A stretch of 64,000 nucleotides of DNA. It comes from Streptomyces sp. MUM 178J (GTDB lineage: Bacteria; Actinomycetota; Actinomycetes; Streptomycetales; Streptomycetaceae). Under the pieces are notes generated by a model, which was given only the letters and a program-made list of their open reading frames with translations, searched no databases and had not been told where the DNA came from. Made by a program: the position numbers and the translations under genes. Shown piece by piece: positions 32,098 through 61,980 of the stretch (positions within the stretch are counted from its first letter, which is position 1; every line of letters begins with the position of its first letter). The stretch covers positions 62,001 to 126,000 of the forward strand of contig NZ_JADWYQ010000006.1 in NCBI RefSeq assembly GCF_022414575.1, given 5' to 3'.

Positions 32098-33072
32098 ATG
32101 CCGGATACCGCGACCGTGCCGGATACCGCGACCGCAGGCCGGCGGCCCCGCTGGCAGCCCGAGCTGCTGCTGATCGCCGCGGTCTACGCCGCGTACTCCG
32201 GCGGCCGGCTGCTGGCCCGCGGCGACGTGACGACGGCGGTCGACCACGGCCTGGCGATACTCCGGGCCGAGAAGGCGCTCGCACTCGACCTGGAACATCC
32301 GCTGAACCGTCTCTTCAGCTCCACCCCCGCCCTCGGCATACCGGCGGACTTCGTATACGCCTCCCTGCACTACCTGGTCACGCCCGCCGTCCTCATCTGG
32401 CTCTTCCGTCGCCACCCGGCCCGCTACCGCGCCGCCCGCGCCTGGCTGATGATCTCCACGCTCCTCGGCCTCGTCGGCTTCACACTGGTGCCGACCTGCC
32501 CGCCGCGGCTGCTGGACGCCGCACACGGCTTCGTCGACACGATGGCTCAGTTCAGCTCGTACGGCTGGTGGGGCGGCGAGGCCAGCGCCCCGCGCGGCCT
32601 GGGCGGCATGACCAACCAGTACGCGGCGATGCCCAGCCTGCACGTGGGCTGGGCGCTGTGGTGCGGAGCAGTGCTCTGGCGGCACGGCCGCACCGCTCCC
32701 ACCAAGGCGTTCGCCGTCGGCTACCCCCTGCTCACCGCCGTCGTGGTGATGGGCACCGCCAACCACTACTTCCTCGACGCGGTCGCCGGTGCCGCCGTCA
32801 TGGGCGTCGGCGCGCTGCTGACGCGGCCGGCGACGCGGCTCCTCGACCGGGTGAGCGCGGTCCTGCCCCGGGAGGCGAACTCCCGCGCTGTCAGTGACGG
32901 ATGCAAGACTTCGGCGGGTGAGCGAATCCCTGGACAGCGGACCTCCTCCGCAGCCTCCGCAGAAGCGGAATGCACAGCGGACCCCAAAGCCGCCGTCGGC
33001 GCAGGCTCCGTCAGCGCTGCCGCCGACGCCGGCGGCGGGGCCGACGACAGCGCTCCGGCAGCGACTCGCTGA
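32098..33072 (+). CDS. PAP2-superfamily integral membrane phosphatase/transferase
   Basis: The 324-residue protein has about six membrane segments. The PAP2 signature is spread over PTCPPRLLDAAHGF, MPSLHVGWALWCGAV (motif 2 His) and ANHYFLDAVAGAAV (motif 3 His and Asp). This form is close to the inositolphosphotransferase/Aur1-like group, acting on lipid phosphates. I chose the ATG at 32098, with GGAGAG about 10 bases upstream, over 32080. The last 60 residues are low complexity and overlap the next gene by about 155 bases in another frame. That is unusual and suggests the natural stop was lost or the tail is dispensable. Confidence 0.88.
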   Translation: MPDTATVPDTATAGRRPRWQPELLLIAAVYAAYSGGRLLARGDVTTAVDHGLAILRAEKALALDLEHPLNRLFSSTPALGIPADFVYASLHYLVTPAVLIWLFRRHPARYRAARAWLMISTLLGLVGFTLVPTCPPRLLDAAHGFVDTMAQFSSYGWWGGEASAPRGLGGMTNQYAAMPSLHVGWALWCGAVLWRHGRTAPTKAFAVGYPLLTAVVVMGTANHYFLDAVAGAAVMGVGALLTRPATRLLDRVSAVLPREANSRAVSDGCKTSAGERIPGQRTSSAASAEAECTADPKAAVGAGSVSAAADAGGGADDSAPAATR

Positions 33073-34819
33073 GCTGCGCGGGCCCGGCGCGCAGCCGCAC
33101 CCGCTCGACGCCCGCGCGCTGGCCGCCCTCGCCGCAAACCCCGGCTGCCGCCGACGCGCGCTGCTCGACGGCGCGGGGGTGGACAAGGCGGCGCTCGCCG
33201 CCGCGCTGGGGTCGCCCGCCGCCTTCGGGCAGTCGCAGTTCGCGTTCGTCCGGGGCAATGCCTTCGAGGCGAAGGTCAAGGCGGACGGCGGAGCGGAGCT
33301 GCTCCGGCTGCTGGGCGTGGACGCCCCCGGGGAGGTCCGCACCCCCGATCTGGCGGCCGCCGGCCCCCAGGGGCGCGCCGCACGCACCTCGCTCGCGCTG
33401 CGGGAGGCAACGCAGGCCGCGGCGGAGGGTGGCGCATGGACGATGCTGGACCATCCGATGCTGGCCCTCGATGTGGCCGGATCGCCCGCCTATCTGGAGC
33501 CGGACGCGGTGGTGGTCCGGCCCGACGGCCGCTGGACGGTCGTCGAGATCAAGTCCTTTCCGATGGTCGACGCGGCCGCCGACCCGTCGAAGGTCGGCGC
33601 CGCCGCCCGGCAGGCAGCGGTGTACACGCTGGCCCTGGAGCGGATCGCGGCCATGACGGGCGGCGCCCGGGTGGAGACGTCGGTGCTGCTGGTGTGCCCC
33701 AAGGACTTCTCCAACGTGCCGACGGCGTCGGTCGTGGACGTACGCAAGCAGCTCGCGGTCACCCGACGCCAGCTGGCCCGGATGACCCGGATCGAGGACA
33801 TCGCCGCCGCGCTGCCGGAAGACGTGAGCTTTGATCTGGAGCAGCCGGCGAGCAAGCTGACCACGGCCGTCGAATCGGTGTCCGCGGTGTACGCCCCCGA
33901 GTGCCTGGCCGCCTGCGAACTGGCCTTCCACTGCCGGGACCGGGCCCGCGCGGAGGGTGCGGTGGCGGCGCTGGGGCGCGGGGTACGGGGCGAGCTGGGC
34001 GGGCTCGCGACCGTGGGGGCGGTGCTGTCCGCGGCCAGGGGCGCGTCGGGCGACCCGGACGATCCGGCGGTGGCGGCGCTGCGCCGCGCCGCGGCCCTGC
34101 GGGCGGAGGCGCTGTCCGCGGCGGACCGCCATCCCGGGGGACCGGGACCCGCGCTGCCGCACGCACGCGCAGTCCCGGAACTCCCGGAACGGGTCCACTC
34201 GCGCGCAGTCCCGGAGCGGGACACCGGGATGGCGGCGGTCCCGCACTGCGGTATCCGGGATGTGCCGACCGCGGTGGGCGGGACGGCGTCGGGGACCACC
34301 CGCGGGGACGGCCACACGGCCGATGCCGAGGGTGCGGCACGCCCCGAGACCGCGGCGCCCGGCGCACTGCGCCAGCCTGCGGGCCGCGCCGTCGAGGGAA
34401 GCGCACGGACCGACCGCCCCGCCGACGCCGGGCGCGCCTCGGAGGGCGGTGCCGGACGCCCCTCAAAGGACACGGCCGCCGTCGGCAACCGCGGAAGAGC
34501 CCCCGGGCGCGTGACCGATACCGGGCATGCGGCCGATACCGGGGCCGATACCGGGCATGCGGCCGGCGCCGAGACCGCGGCACGCGCCCAAGGCGCGGCG
34601 GCCGGCGGGTTGCGCCCGCCCATGCGCCGGGCCGTCGCGGGGAGCACGCCGGCCGACCTCTCCGCCGACTCCGGACGCCCCGCGGAGGGCACGGCCGTCA
34701 GCGACCGTGGCAGAACCACGGGGCGGGCAGAGGGACATGAGGCAGCAGGGCGGGAGACATCAGGACGTGAAGGCGGCGCCCCCGGCGCTCGCGGCGTCGG
34801 CGGGGAGGTGCACGGCTGA
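32918..34819 (+). CDS. Cas4/RecB-like PD-(D/E)XK nuclease with predicted Fe-S cysteines
   Basis: The product has 633 residues. The nuclease core is PAYLEPDAVVVRPDG with Asp196, then WTVVEIKSF with Glu210 and Lys212. ARQAAVYTLALERI follows as the conserved motif IV-type helix with Gln. Cys77 (NPGCRRR) before the core and Cys329, Cys333 and Cys339 (ECLAACELAFHC) after it are arranged as the four cluster ligands of Cas4, AddB, AdnB and Dna2. Residues about 400-633 are an Arg/Ala/Thr-rich repetitive tail. The start is uncertain (GTG 32918, or 32894). It overlaps the PAP2 gene. The next gene's ATG overlaps its stop, and an SF1 helicase lies further downstream. Cleavage of DNA ends is inferred. Confidence 0.82.
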   Translation: MSESLDSGPPPQPPQKRNAQRTPKPPSAQAPSALPPTPAAGPTTALRQRLAELRGPGAQPHPLDARALAALAANPGCRRRALLDGAGVDKAALAAALGSPAAFGQSQFAFVRGNAFEAKVKADGGAELLRLLGVDAPGEVRTPDLAAAGPQGRAARTSLALREATQAAAEGGAWTMLDHPMLALDVAGSPAYLEPDAVVVRPDGRWTVVEIKSFPMVDAAADPSKVGAAARQAAVYTLALERIAAMTGGARVETSVLLVCPKDFSNVPTASVVDVRKQLAVTRRQLARMTRIEDIAAALPEDVSFDLEQPASKLTTAVESVSAVYAPECLAACELAFHCRDRARAEGAVAALGRGVRGELGGLATVGAVLSAARGASGDPDDPAVAALRRAAALRAEALSAADRHPGGPGPALPHARAVPELPERVHSRAVPERDTGMAAVPHCGIRDVPTAVGGTASGTTRGDGHTADAEGAARPETAAPGALRQPAGRAVEGSARTDRPADAGRASEGGAGRPSKDTAAVGNRGRAPGRVTDTGHAADTGADTGHAAGAETAARAQGAAAGGLRPPMRRAVAGSTPADLSADSGRPAEGTAVSDRGRTTGRAEGHEAAGRETSGREGGAPGARGVGGEVHG

Positions 34820-36510
34820 TGTCTTTGATCTCCGCACTCGCCAGGCTTGAGGCCGTCGAGGCGGGGCGGGCGCAGCCGCTCGCCACCGTGCGGCACCGGC
34901 ATCTGTCGGAGCGGCCCCTCGTGCTCGTACCGCTGACCACCGCGGGCGAGGCGGGCGCGCCGCTGGGGGCGCTCGTGGGCTCCGACCCGGAGGAGCCACG
35001 GCTGCTGGCGGTGCCACAGCCGCGGGACCGGGATCTGCGGTCCGCGTTCCTGGCGCAGCTGGCGGACGCGGTGCTGCCGCATCTGGAGTCGTACGCCGAC
35101 GATGTAGAACCGGCCGAGCGCAAGGAGACCGACCCCGAGACCGGCAAGCGGGTCACGGTCCAGACCGAGCTGTGCGCGGACGCGCCGCAGCTGATCGTTC
35201 CGAGCCGCGCGGGTGTGGAGTACGTGCGGCTGCTGGGCCGCTCCATGCGCTTCCGCCGCACCGCCGAGCAGGACCCGGACGCCCCCTATCCCGCGCCGCC
35301 CCGGGTGCCGTTGCTCGGCCGCTGGCTGACGCACTACGGAGAGCGGGCACGGGTGCCGGGCTCCTCGCTGCTGCTCGCCGCGACGGACCTGCTGAACCGG
35401 CACTGGGCCACCGGCCAGTCGAATCTGGAGGACCAGCATCTGGGGGCGCTGCTCGCCTGGGTCGACCCCCCGGAGGCGGAGTCGGGCGCGGCGGCCGCGC
35501 TGCGCGCGGAGCTGGCGCGGGACTCCGGGGGGCAGCTGCTGTGTCCCCCGGCGGGCCCCGCCACCGATCCGGCCTTCGACAACCGGCTCCTGGCCCCTGC
35601 GATGGAGCGGTACGACCGGGCGCGCATGGCCCTCGCGACCGCGGAGGACGGCGCTGCGGCGGATATGCGGCTGGGTGAGCTGACCCGTGCGGAGCGGGAG
35701 ATCCGCGAGCTCCTGGCAAGTCAGCTGCGGCCCACGTGGCGGGCGGTGTGGCGGTGCATCGAGCTGCTGCGGGAGCTTCCGGAGGGGCCGCGGGCGGACG
35801 GGCGGTGGACGCGTGACCGGTGGTCGTTCACGGGGCACCGCGACCGGGTCCGGGCGGGCGAGCCGCCGCAGCCGCGGCGGGACGACGCGGTGACGGCGGC
35901 GCAGAAACTGGCCACCCGCGAGACCGCCCAGGCGCAGCTGGACGCCCAGGAGGCTCTGGACGATCCGCTGGTGATGGCCGGGCGCAGGCTGGTCGGGGAG
36001 GCGTTCGCCTCCGAGGTGACGGATGTGGTGATGGCCTGGTCGGAGTCGAAGCGGCCGAGCCCCCGGCCGCTGGTCACGGTCCGCACCGACGACCGGCCGC
36101 ATCTGGGCGGAGACGGTGGCCCCGGTGGAGACGGTGGCCCCGGTGGAGACGGTGACGCCGCCGACGACGGAGCCGGAGACGGAAGCAGCGCGGGCGGAAA
36201 CAGCGCGGGCAGGGGGACGAAGGTGTTCCGCGTGCTGGCCGACGGCAAGTCGCAGACGGCGGAGTTCGTCGGCCGGGAGGCGGACGGCTCACTGGTGCTG
36301 CGGCTCACCGACCGTATGGGCCGCTCCAAGGAGCCCGCCGAGGGCTCCGTCCCGGACAAGGGCGACCGGATCGTCTGGACGCTCTTCGAACATGACCAGA
36401 GGGGCGGCCCGAAGCTGCCCGACCCGGAGGAGACCCCATGGACCCACGGCGGCCCGCCGACGACGGAGCCGCAGCTGCCGGACGCGGTCACGGCGGAGGA
36501 CGTGCTGTGA
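34819..36510 (+). CDS. Unknown protein of the nuclease-helicase operon
   Basis: The 563-residue cytosolic product has no motif I recognise. The N-terminal part (about 1-120) opens with SLISALARLEAVEAGRAQPL and ends with a charged KETDPETGKRVTVQTE stretch. The middle (120-420) is helical with many Arg/Glu. A Gly/Asp linker (about 432-465, repeats of GGDGGP) leads to a small beta domain (about 468-525, with KVFRVLADGKSQTAEFVGRE and GDRIVWTLFEHD) resembling an OB or SH3 fold. The ATG overlaps the nuclease stop (TGATG), implying translational coupling and a complex or ordered pathway. GGGGAGGTG precedes it. Confidence 0.8.
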   Translation: MSLISALARLEAVEAGRAQPLATVRHRHLSERPLVLVPLTTAGEAGAPLGALVGSDPEEPRLLAVPQPRDRDLRSAFLAQLADAVLPHLESYADDVEPAERKETDPETGKRVTVQTELCADAPQLIVPSRAGVEYVRLLGRSMRFRRTAEQDPDAPYPAPPRVPLLGRWLTHYGERARVPGSSLLLAATDLLNRHWATGQSNLEDQHLGALLAWVDPPEAESGAAAALRAELARDSGGQLLCPPAGPATDPAFDNRLLAPAMERYDRARMALATAEDGAAADMRLGELTRAEREIRELLASQLRPTWRAVWRCIELLRELPEGPRADGRWTRDRWSFTGHRDRVRAGEPPQPRRDDAVTAAQKLATRETAQAQLDAQEALDDPLVMAGRRLVGEAFASEVTDVVMAWSESKRPSPRPLVTVRTDDRPHLGGDGGPGGDGGPGGDGDAADDGAGDGSSAGGNSAGRGTKVFRVLADGKSQTAEFVGREADGSLVLRLTDRMGRSKEPAEGSVPDKGDRIVWTLFEHDQRGGPKLPDPEETPWTHGGPPTTEPQLPDAVTAEDVL

Positions 36511-37012
36511 GGCGGACGGGGGCGGTGCGCGTGCCGGATGCTCCCCGGCGCCGGGCACCGGACCGCGCCCACACGCGGTGCTGCGACCACACCCGGGACC
36601 GCGCCCGCGCGGAGGGCCGCATCCGCACGCGGAGCGATATCCGCACGCGGGATTGTGCCAGTACGCCAGGCGGCGACCGCACGCCGGACCGCGTCCGCAC
36701 GCCAGGCTGCGTCCGCACGCCAGGCTGCGTCCGCACGCCGGGCTGCCACCACACGCGGGACCAGACCCACGCGCCAGGCTGCGTCCGGACGCCGGGCGGT
36801 TTCCAGGCGCCGGAGCGGGAGCAGGGCGGCGTTCCCGCCCCGCGCCATGTGCCCGGCCGACCCCGTTTCGCATGCGCCGCAGGCGGGTTCGCCGCCGCCG
36901 GGTTCGCCGCCGCCGGGTTCGCCGCAGGCGACGTCCTCGCGGCCGGGGTCACCGCGAGCGCCCGCGTGTCCGCGAGGGCCGGCCGGTGTGCGGTCCGCGA
37001 AGGAGGCACCAG
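36511..37012 (+). other. Low-complexity repeat-rich gap between operon genes
   Basis: The 18-bp unit gcgtccgcacgccaggct occurs at 36691, 36709 and 36727 and again near 36780. A 15-bp unit gttcgccgccgccgg is repeated at about 36888-36925. One frame (36438-37016) stays open as 192 residues of TPGCVR-like repeats. Its TGA overlaps the helicase GTG, as a coupled gene would, but the composition looks unlike a protein. I leave it uncalled. It may be a degenerated extension of the preceding gene. Confidence 0.5.
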
Positions 37013-38344
37013 GTGAACGCCTTCGATCCCGGCGCGGCCGCTGCACGCGCCACCGAGGCGATCCTCGCCGACACCCTGCACAGCCCGCACCGCGGCGTCG
37101 TCGTCGACTCGCCGCCCGGCGCCGGCAAGTCCACGCTCGTGGTGCGCGCCGCACGCGAGCTGGCCGCGGCCGGTCGGCCGCTGATGGTCATCGCGCAGAC
37201 GAACGCACAGGTAGACGACCTTGTCCTGCGGCTCGCCGAGAAGGACCCGCGGCTGCCGGTGGGCCGGCTGCACAGCAGCGATCCCGACCCGTACGACAAG
37301 GCGCTGGACGGCCTCGACAACGTCCGCACCTCCGCGAAGGCAGCAGATCTCTCCGGGCTCGACGTGGTGATCTCCACCGCCGCGAAGTGGGCGCATGTGC
37401 AGAACGTGGAGCCCTGGCGGCACGCCATCGTCGACGAGGCGTACCAGATGCGCTCCGACGCGCTGCTCGCCGTCGCGGGGCTGTTCGAGCGTGCGCTGTT
37501 CGTGGGCGACCCGGGGCAGCTCGACCCGTTCTCGATCGTCGGCGCGGAGCAGTGGGCGGGGCTGTCGTACGACCCGTCCGCCAGTGCGGTCTCCACCCTG
37601 CTCGCACACAATCCGGACCTGCCGCAGCACCGGCTGCCGGTGTCGTGGCGGCTGCCGGCGTCGGCCGCGCCGCTGGTGTCCGACGCGTTCTACCCGTACA
37701 CGCCGTTCCGCAGCGGGACGGGCCCCGAGGACCGGCGGCTGGCCTTCGGCACGGCCTCGGACGGCTCGGCTGCGGACCGAGTGCTGGACGAGGCGGCCGA
37801 GTCGGGGTGGGGCCTGCTGGAGCTGCCCGCCCGGCACACGCCGCGTACGGACCCCGAGGCGGTACGGGCAGTGGCCCTGGTCGTCCGCCGGCTGCTGGAC
37901 CGCGGGGCGGCGGCGACCAGCGAGCGTTCCCCGGAGCCGATGCCGGTGACCGCGGACCGGGTAGCGGTCGGCACGGCCCACCGCGACCAGGCGGCGGCGG
38001 TACGGACGGCGCTGGCGGAGGCGGGCGTGAGCGGGGTCACCGTGGACACGGCGAACCGCCTTCAGGGGAGGGAGTTCGACGTCACGGTTGTGCTGCATCC
38101 GCTGTCGGGGCGTCCCGACGCGACGGCTTTCCACCTGGAGACGGGCCGGCTGTGCGTGCTGGCTTCCCGGCACCGGCACGCGTGCGTGGTGGTGTGCCGG
38201 GCGGGGGTGACGGACCTGCTGGACGAGCATCCGTCGACGGAGCCGGTGCAGTTGGGGGTGACGGTGAAGTTCCCCGACGGGTGGGAGGCGATGATGACCA
38301 CACACGATCACCTGTCCAACCACAGGGTGCCGTGGCGACCGTGA
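37013..38344 (+). CDS. SF1 (Upf1/Dna2-like) DNA/RNA helicase
   Basis: The 443-residue product has all superfamily 1 motifs: Walker A DSPPGAGKST (Lys39), Ia AQTNAQVDDLV, Walker B IVDEAYQM, motif III FVGDPGQLDPF, motif IV SWRLP, motif V TVDTANRLQGREFDVTVV and motif VI ASRHRHACVVV. The Q(M)DP…GREFD pattern places it with Upf1/Dna2/NAM7 helicases rather than UvrD. It is compact, without a fused nuclease. The GTG at 37013 follows AAGGAGG at ideal spacing. With the Fe-S nuclease two genes upstream, it would make a split Dna2-like pair. Translocation polarity and substrate are unknown. Confidence 0.9.
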   Translation: MNAFDPGAAAARATEAILADTLHSPHRGVVVDSPPGAGKSTLVVRAARELAAAGRPLMVIAQTNAQVDDLVLRLAEKDPRLPVGRLHSSDPDPYDKALDGLDNVRTSAKAADLSGLDVVISTAAKWAHVQNVEPWRHAIVDEAYQMRSDALLAVAGLFERALFVGDPGQLDPFSIVGAEQWAGLSYDPSASAVSTLLAHNPDLPQHRLPVSWRLPASAAPLVSDAFYPYTPFRSGTGPEDRRLAFGTASDGSAADRVLDEAAESGWGLLELPARHTPRTDPEAVRAVALVVRRLLDRGAAATSERSPEPMPVTADRVAVGTAHRDQAAAVRTALAEAGVSGVTVDTANRLQGREFDVTVVLHPLSGRPDATAFHLETGRLCVLASRHRHACVVVCRAGVTDLLDEHPSTEPVQLGVTVKFPDGWEAMMTTHDHLSNHRVPWRP

Positions 38345-38874
38345 TGTGCGCGCCGGCCTGACCGGCGCGGCGTACCGAACCACACCCGCACCCGCAATCG
38401 CGCCCGCGCCGGGCTGCCGCCGGCACGCTGCCGGAGGCGACCCGGGGGCCAGGGGCCTGATCCCCACCCTGATCCCCGATCGATCCTTCCCCTTCCCGAA
38501 ACAAGGACCTCCGTCCCCAGCCCCTCTCCCGCAAGGGGCAGCGGCGGCTTCATGCCGCCGCCCGGAGCCGCCGCGGAACCGCGTCCGGCCGGTCTCCGCA
38601 CAGGCCGCGGAAGCCCGCACAGGCCGGGGGGAGGAGCTACCGCGCTCCGTCGCACCACGGCGGCAGGCGCGGTGCGACGGACCACGGCGGCAGGCGGCAG
38701 GGACCCCGCCCGCGCCGCACGGGCCGAACGTTCACGAGGTACCCGGCCCCTTTGGTCCACCCGCGTTCCGAGCTCACCCGGCAGGGGTCGGGCGACGCGT
38801 ACTTGCGGTGGGCGGGACAATGAGAGGGCAGCGGGGGCGATCTTCGGTGGAGTGGGTTGAGGAGGAGAGTGCGC
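38345..38874. other. Intergenic region after the helicase gene
   Basis: No gene is supported in these 530 bases. The middle (38452-38545) has C-rich sequence typical of streptomycete 3' regions. AGGAGGAG at 38861-38868 is the ribosome-binding site of the next gene. Confidence 0.45.
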
Positions 38875-39213
38875 ATGGCGGAATCCGAGCGGGGCGAGCG
38901 CAGGCTGCGGCCGGCGCCGTTGATCTTCGAGCCTGCGGAGGCCGCCGCCGACCCCGAGCACTTCTTCGATCTGGAGTCGATGGAGGATCCACGCGAGCTG
39001 CTGGCGCGGGCCACGGAGCTCACGCTGGCGTTCCGGGCCGCGACGGACCGGGCCATGGAGTTCCAGGCCGTCGCCGCCGCGCAGCTCGCCGACCCCCGGC
39101 GGTTCGACCGGCTCACCGCCGCGGACATCGCCGCCCGTGCGGAGTGGACCGAGGACTACGCCCGGAAGATGATCGAGTTCGGGCGCGATCTGCTCCGGGA
39201 CGCGACCCCGTGA
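38875..39213 (+). CDS. Small helical hypothetical protein
   Basis: The 112-residue soluble product has an acidic stretch (PLIFEPAEAAADPEHFFDLE) followed by long helices (LLARATELTLAFRAATDRAM, then EFQAVAAAQLADPRRFDRLT and WTEDYARKMIEFGRDLL). The last region could be a UBA-like or HTH-like three-helix unit (TAADIAARAEWTEDYARKMI). The ATG at 38875 is preceded by AGGAGGAG. It is 530 bases from the helicase, so membership in that operon is doubtful. The family is unknown to me. Confidence 0.72.
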   Translation: MAESERGERRLRPAPLIFEPAEAAADPEHFFDLESMEDPRELLARATELTLAFRAATDRAMEFQAVAAAQLADPRRFDRLTAADIAARAEWTEDYARKMIEFGRDLLRDATP

Positions 39214-39267: not shown

Positions 39268-39441
39268 AGATCCGCCGGACACCCTCGCAGGGCCTAACGG
39301 CCGCACGCACGTGCGGCACTACGCCACTGGCACCGCAGCCCCGCATATGCCGGGGGGCAAGATACCCCCTCCCGCACTCCTGTGTCCGCGTTTTCCCAAC
39401 TCTCGGAAACCGGCTTCTCACTCTCGGTAGATCTTGGAGCC

Positions 39442-40032
39442 ATGACTACCTCGTCTGCCCGGCTCCCGGACACACCCCTCCACGTCGGCCAGGTCACCGC
39501 CCCCGGGGCGGAGTGGCTGGCCTCCGCCGAGGCGTGCCCGAGCGGTGCGCTCTGGGCATGGCGGACGCAGCCGACCGCGCCCGCCGCGCTGCCCTGCGGC
39601 ACGGTCTTCGACGTCGTGAACGCGCCGGCGGTCTTCGGGCGGCGGATGCTCGACCGGCTCTGGGAGGAGGGCCCGGGATCGGGTCCCGCAGCCGTGCACC
39701 GGGGCCGGATGCTGCTCTTCGCCGCGCCCGGGGCCGCCCAGCGACTGCCGTCCCTGCTGCGCTGGGAGGCATGGGGCGACAGCGTGCCGCCGCTGATCTG
39801 CCATGGCGCGGGGGACGCCGTGACCGTTCCGCCGCTGACCCCGTCGGACCCCGCCGGGCCGCGATGGCTGGTGGCGCCGGACACCCGCAACCCCTGGCTG
39901 CCGGGGCCCGAGGTGCTCGTCTGGGCAGCCGTGCGAGCGGCGCGTGCGGCCGGCGCCGCAGAGGTCCGCGTATCGATTTTTCCTCCCGCCGATCAGGATG
40001 CTAAGGTCTACGACGTCAGCAGGCGCCGCTAG
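39442..40032 (+). CDS. Conserved hypothetical protein whose 3' end overlaps tRNA-Lys
   Basis: The 196-residue product has PAALPCGTVFDVVNAPAVFG, RRMLDRLWEEGPGSGPAAVH and RWLVAPDTRNPWLPGPEVLV. The pattern CGTVFDVV…LGRR…DRL resembles the N-terminal half of actinobacterial bifunctional DNA primase/polymerase-like proteins, without a visible catalytic triad. The ATG at 39442 has GGAG 2 bases upstream. Its TAG stop (40030-40032) lies inside the acceptor/D-arm of the following tRNA-Lys gene, so the last three codons overlap the tRNA and the tRNA promoter must lie in the coding region. Confidence 0.75.
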   Translation: MTTSSARLPDTPLHVGQVTAPGAEWLASAEACPSGALWAWRTQPTAPAALPCGTVFDVVNAPAVFGRRMLDRLWEEGPGSGPAAVHRGRMLLFAAPGAAQRLPSLLRWEAWGDSVPPLICHGAGDAVTVPPLTPSDPAGPRWLVAPDTRNPWLPGPEVLVWAAVRAARAAGAAEVRVSIFPPADQDAKVYDVSRRR

Positions 40033-40096
40033 CTCAGTTGGTTAGAGCAGCTGACTCTTAATCAGCGGGTCCGGGGTTCGAGTCCCTGGCGGCGCA
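40023..40096 (+). tRNA. tRNA-Lys (CTT), copy 1
   Basis: The acceptor GCGCCGC pairs with GCGGCGC and the discriminator is A. The anticodon loop CTCTTAA gives CTT at 40057-40059. The T-arm GGGGTTCGAGTCCC is canonical. CCA is not encoded. Identical in all 74 bases to the copies at 56890 and 61896. The first ten bases overlap the end of the preceding coding sequence. Confidence 0.97.
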
Positions 40097-40103
40097 CAGA
40101 CGA

Positions 40104-41818: not shown

Positions 41819-43900
41819 GTGAGCGGATTCTCCGAAGGACCAGGGCCGGCGGGAGTCGCAGCGCCCGTCGGCACGCTGATTTCAGTGACAGAGAGTGGCG
41901 AGGAGCGGCGGACACGGGCCGCCGGCTGTCTGGCGGTGGACTGCCGCGCCGCCCAGCATCCGGCCATGGACGGCCGGGTCATGGACGGCCGGGTCATCGA
42001 CCACCTGGCCCCGGACGGCCGCGACACGGACGACCGGCACGCAGACGGCGGCGGCCCGGAGTGCCGGCACGCAGACGGCGGCGGCCCTGAGAGCCGGGCC
42101 GCGGGCCGCCGCGCCACCCGCTCTGCGGCGTCCGACTACCGGGCCGCCTTCAACGCCGCCCATATGGCGATGGCCGTCGTCGACCACGAGGGCCTGGTGG
42201 TCTCGGCCAACGACGCGCTCGCTCTGCTGCTCGACGCCGAGCCGTCCGGCCTCGATGGCCGCTGCGCGGCCGAACTGGTCGACGTCGCCTCGGACGGGCG
42301 CACTTGGCACGCCTACCGCGAGGTCCTGCGCGGCCGCCGCTCCCGGTTCCGCTGCACCCGCCGCCTCAAGTACCCCGACGGCCGCCCCCTGTGGGCCGAG
42401 ATCACCGTGACCCCCATGGCCGGCGACGGCCGTACGGTCCTGCTGTCCGTCGCCGACATCAGCGACCGACGCGAGCTGCGCGCGCGGCTGCGCCACCTCC
42501 AGATGCACGACCAGGTGACCAGGCTGCCCAACCGCACCCTGTTCTTCGAGCGGCTCACCGCGGCGCTGGAGTCATCGGCGTACGACGAGGGTTCCACGGG
42601 CCGGATCGGGCTGTGCTACCTGGATCTCGACGGCTTCAAGGCGGTGAACGACACCCTCGGCCACCGGGTCGGCGACCGACTGCTCGCCGCGGTCGCCGCG
42701 CGGCTGTCGGAGTGCGTGGCGAGGGCGGCGGGCGGCCAGGGCCGCGGGGGCGAGGGAGCGGCCCCCCGGGGCGACGGGCGCGGCAGGGGCGGCGCAGGCG
42801 GCGGACATCTCGCGGCCCGGCTCGGGGGCGACGAGTTCGCGATCCTCGTCGAGGACTCGACGGGGACGGAACAACTCGCCGACCTCGCCAGGACCGTGCT
42901 CACCGCACTGCAGCAGCCGTTCGACCTCGCCGGCCAGCGGCTGTCGCTCTCCGCCTCGATCGGAGTCGTGGAGCGCCCGGTGGCGGGCACGTCCGCCACC
43001 GGGCTGATGCAGGCCGCGGACACCACCCTGTACTGGGCCAAGGCGGACGGAAAGGCCCGCTGGACCTTCTTCGACCCCGAGCGGAACGCGCACCGGATGA
43101 CCCGTCAGGCGCTGGCCTCGACGCTGCGTCCAGCGGTGGAGCGGGGCGAGTTCCAGCTGGAGTACCAGCCGTTGGTGGGCCTCGCGGACGGGGTCGCGCA
43201 CGGGGTGGAGGCGCTGGTCCGCTGGCGGCACCCGCAGTTCGGCACGCTGACGCCGAATCGGTTCATCGGAATCGCCGAAGAGGACGGGTCGATCGTCCAG
43301 CTCGGGCAGTGGGTGCTGCGGACCGCCTGCCGGCAGGCCAGGCGGTGGCAGGAGGACCATCCGAAGGCGCCGCCGCTGTTCGTCAGCGTCAATGTCGCGG
43401 TGCGCCAGGTCTGGGACTCCGACCTGGTCGCGGATGTGGCCGGAATCCTGGCGGAGACCGGGCTCGCGCCTCATCTGCTCCAGCTCGAGCTGACCGAGTC
43501 CGCGGTGATGGGCTCGGCGGGCCGTCCCCTCCAGGCGCTCCAGGCGCTCAGCGACATGGGTGTGCGGATCGCCATCGACGACTTCGGAACCGGGTACTCG
43601 AACCTGGCGTATCTGAGCCGGCTGCCGGTGTCCGCGCTGAAGCTCGACGGGTCCTTCGTCCGCGGCTTCCAGGACGAGGCGCACCCGAACCCGGCCGACG
43701 AGACGATCGTCGAGGCGATGGTGGACCTCGCGCACCGGCTGGGGCTGACAGTCACCGCGGAGTGCGTCGAGACGGCGGGGCAGGCGGAGCGGCTGCGGCG
43801 GATCGGCTGCGACACCGGGCAGGGCTGGCTGTACTCCAGAGCCGTCGCCCCGGAGCGCATCGACCACATGATCGGCGCGAGCCCGCTCCCGGTCTGTTGA
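41819..43900 (+). CDS. cdgA: CdgA, PAS-GGDEF-EAL cyclic di-GMP enzyme
   Basis: The product has 693 residues. A disordered N-terminus with MDGR/HADGGGPE repeats (1-100) precedes a PAS domain (about 108-225) and a GGDEF domain (about 235-415, catalytic LGGDEF intact, with a Gly-rich insertion of about 35 residues before it). An EAL domain covers about 435-690, with VEALVRWRHP, VNVAVRQ and IDDFGTGYSNLAYLSRLP. Both halves look catalytically complete. The layout and neighbourhood match CdgA (SCO2817) of S. coelicolor, which affects development and is in the BldD regulon. No RxxD inhibitory site is visible five residues before GGDEF. The GTG at 41819 follows GGGAG. Confidence 0.93.
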   Translation: MSGFSEGPGPAGVAAPVGTLISVTESGEERRTRAAGCLAVDCRAAQHPAMDGRVMDGRVIDHLAPDGRDTDDRHADGGGPECRHADGGGPESRAAGRRATRSAASDYRAAFNAAHMAMAVVDHEGLVVSANDALALLLDAEPSGLDGRCAAELVDVASDGRTWHAYREVLRGRRSRFRCTRRLKYPDGRPLWAEITVTPMAGDGRTVLLSVADISDRRELRARLRHLQMHDQVTRLPNRTLFFERLTAALESSAYDEGSTGRIGLCYLDLDGFKAVNDTLGHRVGDRLLAAVAARLSECVARAAGGQGRGGEGAAPRGDGRGRGGAGGGHLAARLGGDEFAILVEDSTGTEQLADLARTVLTALQQPFDLAGQRLSLSASIGVVERPVAGTSATGLMQAADTTLYWAKADGKARWTFFDPERNAHRMTRQALASTLRPAVERGEFQLEYQPLVGLADGVAHGVEALVRWRHPQFGTLTPNRFIGIAEEDGSIVQLGQWVLRTACRQARRWQEDHPKAPPLFVSVNVAVRQVWDSDLVADVAGILAETGLAPHLLQLELTESAVMGSAGRPLQALQALSDMGVRIAIDDFGTGYSNLAYLSRLPVSALKLDGSFVRGFQDEAHPNPADETIVEAMVDLAHRLGLTVTAECVETAGQAERLRRIGCDTGQGWLYSRAVAPERIDHMIGASPLPVC

Positions 43901-56889: not shown

Positions 56890-56963
56890 GCGCCGCTAGC
56901 TCAGTTGGTTAGAGCAGCTGACTCTTAATCAGCGGGTCCGGGGTTCGAGTCCCTGGCGGCGCA
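56890..56963 (+). tRNA. tRNA-Lys (CTT), copy 2
   Basis: Identical over 74 bases to copies 1 and 3. The three bases after it are CCA (56964-56966), so this copy encodes or mimics the 3' CCA. TATTAT about 17 bases upstream (56869-56876) may be its -10 element. Confidence 0.97.
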
Positions 56964-56974
56964 CCACTGATCTT

Positions 56975-61895: not shown

Positions 61896-61969
61896 GCGCC
61901 GCTAGCTCAGTTGGTTAGAGCAGCTGACTCTTAATCAGCGGGTCCGGGGTTCGAGTCCCTGGCGGCGCA
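61896..61969 (+). tRNA. tRNA-Lys (CTT), copy 3
   Basis: Identical over 74 bases to copies 1 and 2. TAGAGT about 19 bases upstream (61875-61880) may be its -10 element. CCA is not encoded. Confidence 0.97.
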
Positions 61970-61980
61970 CGCGCAAGCCG

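Follow-up and report, generated by a model that had tools for sequence, protein, structure and literature searches.

A core three-gene operon of Streptomycetaceae that probably encodes a DNA2-like helicase-nuclease in three subunits, with paralogs in defence islands

The window is a 64,000-nt stretch of DNA from Streptomyces sp. MUM 178J (contig NZ_JADWYQ010000006.1, positions 62,001–126,000); all positions below are those of the window. It carries three genes, here termed g1, g2 and g3, in this order on the forward strand: a predicted nuclease, a partner protein and a superfamily 1 (SF1) helicase. Their features are as follows.

32894–34819, + strand: g1, predicted Cas4/RecB-type PD-(D/E)XK nuclease, 641 codons when read from GTG 32894, the longest start; GTG 32918 is an alternative
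33146–33148, + strand: g1 Cys85 codon, first of four predicted iron-sulfur (Fe-S) ligands, from alignment of g1 sequences
33503–33553, + strand: g1 catalytic stretch with Asp204 (33503), Glu218 (33545) and Lys220 (33551), from alignments
33902–33934, + strand: g1 Cys337, Cys341 and Cys347 codons (C-x3-C-x5-C), from alignments
34817–34821, + strand: TGATG stop/start overlap of g1 with g2, one base shared, by direct reading
34819–36510, + strand: g2, partner protein of 563 amino acids (aa), no significant family match; AlphaFold model
34909–35970, + strand: g2 residues 31–384, tentative RNase H/PolB 3'-5'-exonuclease-like domain plus helices
35944–36405, + strand: g2 residues 376–529, helix and beta-barrel resembling the 1B domain of IGHMBP2/SETX/Sen1
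36511–37012, + strand: g2-g3 gap of 502 bp, low-complexity, with tandem repeats at 36623–36797
37000–37006, + strand: ribosome-binding site AAGGAGG, 6 nt 5' of the g3 start, by direct reading
37013–38344, + strand: g3, 443-aa SF1 helicase core of UPF1/DNA2 type (AAA_11/AAA_12), start GTG 37013
37118–37135, + strand: g3 Walker A, GAGKST, invariant in 16/16 aligned sequences
37433–37447, + strand: g3 Walker B (motif II), DEAYQ, with D, E, Y and Q invariant in 16/16 aligned sequences

The operon is flanked by a PAP2 phosphatase gene, which the 5' end of g1 overlaps, and by a small conserved open reading frame (ORF). The initial annotation started g1 at GTG 32918, 8 codons downstream of the longest start, and its residue numbers are 8 lower. 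All of the motif residues that it named in g1 are present: Cys77, Asp196, Glu210, Lys212 and Cys329/333/339 correspond to C85, D204, E218, K220 and C337/C341/C347. The one-base overlap that it reported between g1 and g2 is read at 34817–34821. A promoter and terminator scan shows a single promoter-like site, on the opposite strand, and no terminator.

For comparison, 80 named loci were used, the best among 452 confirmed; 79 carry a Streptomyces title and one is titled "Actinobacteria bacterium". The order g1-g2-g3 on one strand is found in all 76 that reach all three genes; the remaining four miss g1 or g3, each at a contig end. The trio is present in 19 of the first 20 loci examined, and the genes are three separate ORFs also in relatives with called genes. 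Detection of g3 extends to 244/249 genomes of the family and 17/17 genera, with paralogs included in the count. The g2 gene is detected in 44/61 relatives, including 37/37 of the window's genus (its own genome counted), and in 14/396 genomes of an even phylum sample, 12 of them from the window's genus. Its closest relatives among the matches listed are from Streptomyces, with 98% identity at best. This conservation in genomes and loci identifies the trio as a core operon of Streptomycetaceae. There is no match to g2 in 50,697 phage records and none confirmed in viral contigs, and a plasmid collection yields three records with g2 paralogs of 37.7–46.1% identity, one of which, at 11.85 Mb, is by its size a chromosome. 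Phage records contain nothing for g3, and PHROG 25411 (function unknown) matches g3 at an expectation value (E) of 1.5e-16. On the phage, viral-contig and plasmid-collection searches, the window copy is rejected as a phage or plasmid gene. The window's g1 has 641 codons versus 372–525 in 17 full-length relatives, the excess being a low-complexity tail from residue ~415 (about 34140–34800), and the g2-g3 gap is 502 bp, whereas it does not exceed 299 bp in 76 named loci. At both sites, the g1 tail and the repeat-filled gap, the low-complexity expansion exceeds that of the relatives measured.

On sequence grounds, the nuclease core of g1 and the helicase core of g3 are established. In g1, C85, C337, C341, C347 and D204 are invariant in 15/15 aligned sequences with identities down to 43%. 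E218 and K220 are kept in 13/15; the two exceptions (L036 and L039, identical to L151 and L154) are at loci linked to the pPIWI-RE system described below. All seven residues are kept in 77/78 sequences from the named loci, the other having L at C85. Thus g1 has a PD-(D/E)XK nuclease core of the RecB/Cas4 type, as was initially proposed from its motif and cysteines. The four cysteines are conserved in the order seen in DNA2 and the bacterial enzyme Bad, one N-terminal and three C-terminal to the nuclease core, and their proximity is modelled with low confidence; as predicted Fe-S ligands they would hold an Fe-S cluster. A CRISPR-adaptation Cas4 was rejected as an identity for g1, there being no Cas4 model match in Pfam or PADLOC.

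The g3 protein matches AAA_11 and AAA_12 above the Pfam cut-off and is the sole AAA_12 match in the window's genome. The best PDB matches by profile are DNA2 (E 1e-9) and IGHMBP2 (E 1.4e-9), followed by UPF1, which places g3 with the SF1B helicases of the UPF1/DNA2 type. The earlier assignment to Upf1/Dna2-like helicases thus holds, for a minimal core behind an AAGGAGG ribosome-binding site. Polarity would be 5'-3', as is typical of the family. As the start of g3 lies shortly before motif I, there is no room for a 1B part. Helicase motifs are intact in two aligned pPIWI-RE-linked g3 sequences (L036, L039). In PADLOC-DB 2.0.0, g3 has partial matches to the helicases of Mokosh, DpdJ, GajB and mad8, and the NCBIfam model 'PLuB' also matches it; none of the paper titles listed for that name is relevant.

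The AlphaFold model of g2 has a predicted local distance difference test (pLDDT) of 89 and a predicted template modelling score of 0.87. The C-terminal part seems in this model to resemble the stalk-and-barrel (1B) domain that is absent from g3, a likeness that is supported, not proven. In residues 31–384 the usual catalytic acids are not evident by eye, and a sequence search of the PDB with g2 gives nothing relevant. Database product names of g1 and g2 homologues are hypothetical or uncharacterised, with a few 'secreted protein' and one 'PE-PGRS family'.

A new observation is that defence islands contain paralogs of the g1-g2-g3 operon, in most cases extended by a fourth gene, g0. The g0 gene (L150:7285–8130 and homologues) encodes ~280 aa with a coiled-coil-like start and is positioned before g1 in the island copies. 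It is found in 35/391 genomes of the order and not in the window's genome; one member was scanned against Pfam, NCBIfam and PADLOC and matched nothing. PADLOC-DB 2.0.0 likewise gives 0 matches for g1 and g2. By a single tblastn rule, 48 non-core stretches contain g1 in 46, g2 in 46, g3 in 45 and g0 in 43. They are an uneven sample (30 from a g0 search, 15 from g2 searches and 3 from the plasmid collection), and the g0-positive counts are inflated because most stretches came from the g0 search. Two stretches (L205, L218) have g0 only, hence 46 non-core loci are counted; a single chromosome contributes two of these, L216 and L217, from its two ends. Part of the island gene calls was made by codon scoring. 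Labels of Wadjet, SbcCD and Ppr genes are from tblastn to representatives whose own identity comes from PADLOC, NCBIfam or Pfam matches or from the annotation of their records.

SbcC is present in 24 and SbcD in 25 of the 46 non-core loci, each on the strand opposite g2; thus 24 loci have the SbcC-SbcD (Mre11-Rad50) pair and one has SbcD only. In L138, SbcC is reduced to a short, broken fragment. All 12 genomes scanned have one SbcD outside the island, and eight have an additional island SbcD with weaker scores; the island SbcD is therefore an extra copy. PprPDDEXK, PprRE and PprDinG occur together in 12/46 loci, on the strand opposite g2, and the Ppr genes never co-occur with SbcC or SbcD. 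In one locus that was extended and scanned, the gene after PprDinG is pPIWI-RE itself. Wadjet genes are found in 11/46 loci: type I JetA-B-C-D in three and JetC2 in six, four of these with JetA2 and JetB2. In L148 and L201 a JetC2 relative is the sole Jet gene seen, L189 and L191 have another JetC2 subtype (PADLOC; tblastn) and L149 has decayed JetA pieces; JetC2 is on the opposite strand in L189, L191 and L201. On two Streptomyces plasmids the paralogous trio is immediately upstream of JetABCD. Beyond g1-g3, the same SbcCD, Wadjet and Ppr references match 0/80 core loci (1.01 Mb, in shorter stretches) and nothing in the window. DUF3375 JetA is not found in the window's genome.

Other genes recur 3' of the island g3. 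Five loci (L200, L201, L208, L209, L210) share a 718–749-aa gene, whose L208 member matches PADLOC restriction-type helicase models, and four (L195, L196, L197, L199) share a 1,064–1,069-aa gene and another gene. The downstream genes of L195 have a weak match to a type III restriction model (3e-7) and a strong one to a type III methyltransferase. SbcC-linked copies lie ~18–25 kb from the ends of four single-contig chromosomes, G680 (L216, L217), G778 (L201), G720 (L208) and G474 (L210). G680 has a copy at both ends, consistent with terminal inverted repeats, and G757 has an island copy on a 75-kb contig. Telomere association of the whole family was dropped, as pPIWI-RE-linked copies in G499, G552 and G615 are >1 Mb inside.

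Comparison of 54 g1 sequences (9 core, 45 non-core) shows that C337, C341 and C347 are kept in all of them; the Cys85 column is missing in eight rows where the called start lies after it. D204, E218 and K220 are all kept in 9/9 core and 31/45 non-core sequences. Two of these three residues are changed in every pPIWI-RE-linked g1 (12/12): eight have E218L and K220R, plus E125H, and four have D204Q and K220R. The other altered sequences are L202 (D204Q, K220R) and L211 (D204E, K220R), and none of the 23 SbcC-linked g1 has altered catalytic residues. Judged from these substitutions, the nuclease beside pPIWI-RE looks dead. In a tree of g2 plus g3 (52 loci with called g2 and a g3 of 400–520 aa; 930 columns), the 9 core copies are one clade with support 1.0. 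The 12 pPIWI-RE-linked copies and L202 are a separate group with L211 adjacent, and the SbcC-linked copies do not form a single clade.

It is probable that g1, g2 and g3 are three subunits of one DNA2-like helicase-nuclease, and the split nuclease-helicase of the initial annotation is thus supported. The three-chain complex would load onto a 5' single-stranded end. There g3 would be the ATP-driven SF1B motor that pulls DNA 5'-3', and g2 would supply the stalk and 1B barrel in trans as a clamp. The RNase H-like N-terminal part of g2, apparently catalytically degenerate, would form a bridge to g1, an Fe-S-stabilised single-strand nuclease that may cut the strand exposed by the motor. The window copy, the core version of Streptomycetaceae, most likely processes broken, flapped or stalled chromosomal DNA, with ends from replication or repair. 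Defence islands may have co-opted paralogous copies; these would process the ends that the island SbcCD makes and degrade DNA opened by Wadjet cleavage, and beside pPIWI-RE the machine would work purely as a helicase.

Several results weigh against this interpretation. Pfam PDDEXK_1 matches g1 below cut-off (E 0.019) and matches 3/15 members, the best at 0.0021. Foldseek finds nothing at E<=0.001 with the g1 or the g2 model, and the C-terminal cysteine region of the g1 model has a pLDDT of about 36–53. The 1B match of g2 is within 1 Z of ferredoxin-reductase barrels, and its polymerase match barely exceeds the level reached by models without relatives. Profiles of g1 and g2 are not significant against fused TM0106 proteins (E 0.034 and 0.035), the possible single-chain counterparts considered below, and the same run gave comparable values for six unrelated controls (E 0.014–0.52, best 0.014–0.33). 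SbcC/D and Ppr genes are both missing from the stretch read in nine of the 46 non-core loci. L027 has g2 in a broken frame and g3, with g1 not seen; L156 (G261) has g1-g2, with g3 not detected and a different 777-aa gene following.

The lack of detectable homology of g1 and g2 to the fused proteins and the g1-g2 pair of L156 speak for a transcription unit of DNA-metabolism enzymes and no single machine, with an independent Cas4-like g1, an independent g3, and g2 a partner of one of them. This is unlikely, however, because the trio stays together and in order at the core locus and in islands, across families, and the 1B domain absent from g3 is seemingly present in g2. A little less likely still is that all copies, including the window's, are a defence module against plasmid or phage DNA, a proposal that differs from the three-subunit enzyme outlined above solely in what the core copy does. 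Although paralogs accompany SbcCD, type I and type II Wadjet and pPIWI-RE-system genes, the core copy has no such neighbours, is near-universal in the family and, in the named loci, keeps a single syntenic position between ordinary genes, which is unusual for defence genes; nor do g1 and g2 match any PADLOC model. An action of the helicase on RNA or R-loops in the manner of UPF1/IGHMBP2, with the nuclease as a regulatory partner, is improbable: g3 is equally close to IGHMBP2 and DNA2 by sequence, and the pPIWI-RE-linked version has an altered nuclease site beside a DinG helicase system for which action on R-loops is suggested (PMC3702460), but the core g1 is a RecB/Cas4-type nuclease with intact catalytic residues, pointing to DNA, as do the SbcCD and Wadjet links.

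Taking the three-subunit helicase-nuclease together with its island neighbours, we tentatively suggest a joint reading that is possible, if on balance doubtful. Actinobacteria would have a modular counterpart of Mre11-Rad50 plus DNA2 end resection, made of island SbcC-SbcD, g0 and g1-g2-g3, which is plugged into different sensors: Wadjet I/II, which open plasmids, or pPIWI-RE, with a dead nuclease and use of the helicase alone; an ancestral or domesticated trio would have become the core maintenance enzyme of Streptomycetaceae. A three-subunit DNA2, if true, would show how motor, 1B clamp and nuclease can be separated. The copies would also provide natural variants, with live and with dead nucleases, for studying self-inhibition of DNA2-type helicases, and they offer a testable answer to the fate of plasmid DNA after Wadjet cutting. 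In the main family of antibiotic producers, the core copy is a near-universal, predicted DNA-processing operon whose products are mostly labelled hypothetical proteins.

Downstream of the operon, the small ORF at 38857–39213 has no Pfam match and has a counterpart in 74/80 named core loci. A Prim-Pol gene (PF09250, E 6.5e-6) is at 39382–40032 with a lysine transfer RNA (tRNA-Lys) gene at its end. Both may be part of the same neighbourhood as the operon. Three tRNA-Lys (CTT) genes, at 40023–40097, 56890–56966 and 61896–61970, share one sequence, except that the middle gene also encodes the CA end, and represent possible integration sites or simple duplication. A PAS-GGDEF-EAL protein at 41819–43900 is an ordinary cyclic-di-GMP gene product. 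An SOS-box pattern has 0 matches in the window.

The motors of AddAB, AdnAB and RecBCD are UvrD-like SF1A helicases. The trio was rejected as an AddAB/AdnAB enzyme, since its g3 motor is of the UPF1/DNA2 type and the helicase class differs. Eukaryotic DNA2 works with Mre11-Rad50-Nbs1 in end resection. It likewise combines a nuclease with an SF1B helicase, and an island Mre11-Rad50 homologue is encoded next door to the paralogs; however, g1-g2-g3 is split, and its link to the island SbcCD is one of gene neighbourhood. UvrD-Cas4 fusions and neighbouring pairs have a Cas4-like nuclease and an SF1 helicase, some in defence contexts, but the helicase is UvrD-type and the accessible parts of the paper describe no third protein (PMC5704561). 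No such trio is described in the accessible parts of PMC3702460, PMC10586767, PMC7641849 and PMC5704561; the literature covered includes few subscription papers or preprints, so the trio may have been published.

In COG2251 (TM0106) proteins, a DUF83 Cas4-like nuclease is combined with AAA domains and with a domain of RNase H type that is close to the PolB exonucleases (PMC3985635). Nineteen of 20 TM0106 stretches fetched have a single long frame of 1,131–1,393 residues. The g3 profile aligns with the helicase end of the fused proteins at E 4e-22, in a comparison that excluded sequences outside set length ranges. The best stretch of g1 falls on the TM0106 cysteine cluster, which is a hint only. 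The corresponding NCBIfam model, TIGR03491, does not match g1 or g2, or anything in the window's genome. It matches 45/148 genomes of the class, 39 above cut-off, and within the sampled part of the window's genus G239 only, weakly (E 9.5e-4). The likeness is in a Cas4-like nuclease, a helicase matching g3 and, tentatively, the RNase H-like domain of g2, in one fused chain there and three chains here.

DNA2 and the bacterial relatives found are described as single chains. The nearest studied enzyme to g1-g2-g3 is Bad from Geobacillus, in which one chain joins an Fe-S 'iron-staple' RecB-family nuclease to an SF1B helicase, with a structurally uncharacterised domain between them (PMC7430649). The same layout of nuclease, unknown central part and SF1B helicase is found in g1-g2-g3. 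The 5'-3' helicase of Bad is masked by its own nuclease, and nuclease loss unmasks unwinding (PMC7430649); by analogy, this makes a helicase-only role beside pPIWI-RE a natural idea. The authors propose a restriction link (PMC7430649), and a methyltransferase adjoins Bad, an arrangement that the type III methyltransferase match 3' of g3 in L195 brings to mind. Bad is a single polypeptide of sporadic occurrence. The parts of g1-g2-g3 are encoded by separate genes, are near-universal in one family and have island paralogs linked with SbcCD, with Wadjet and with pPIWI-RE-system genes. Because it is not a single polypeptide, the trio stands outside the DNA2/Bad class, with Bad as its closest studied neighbour.
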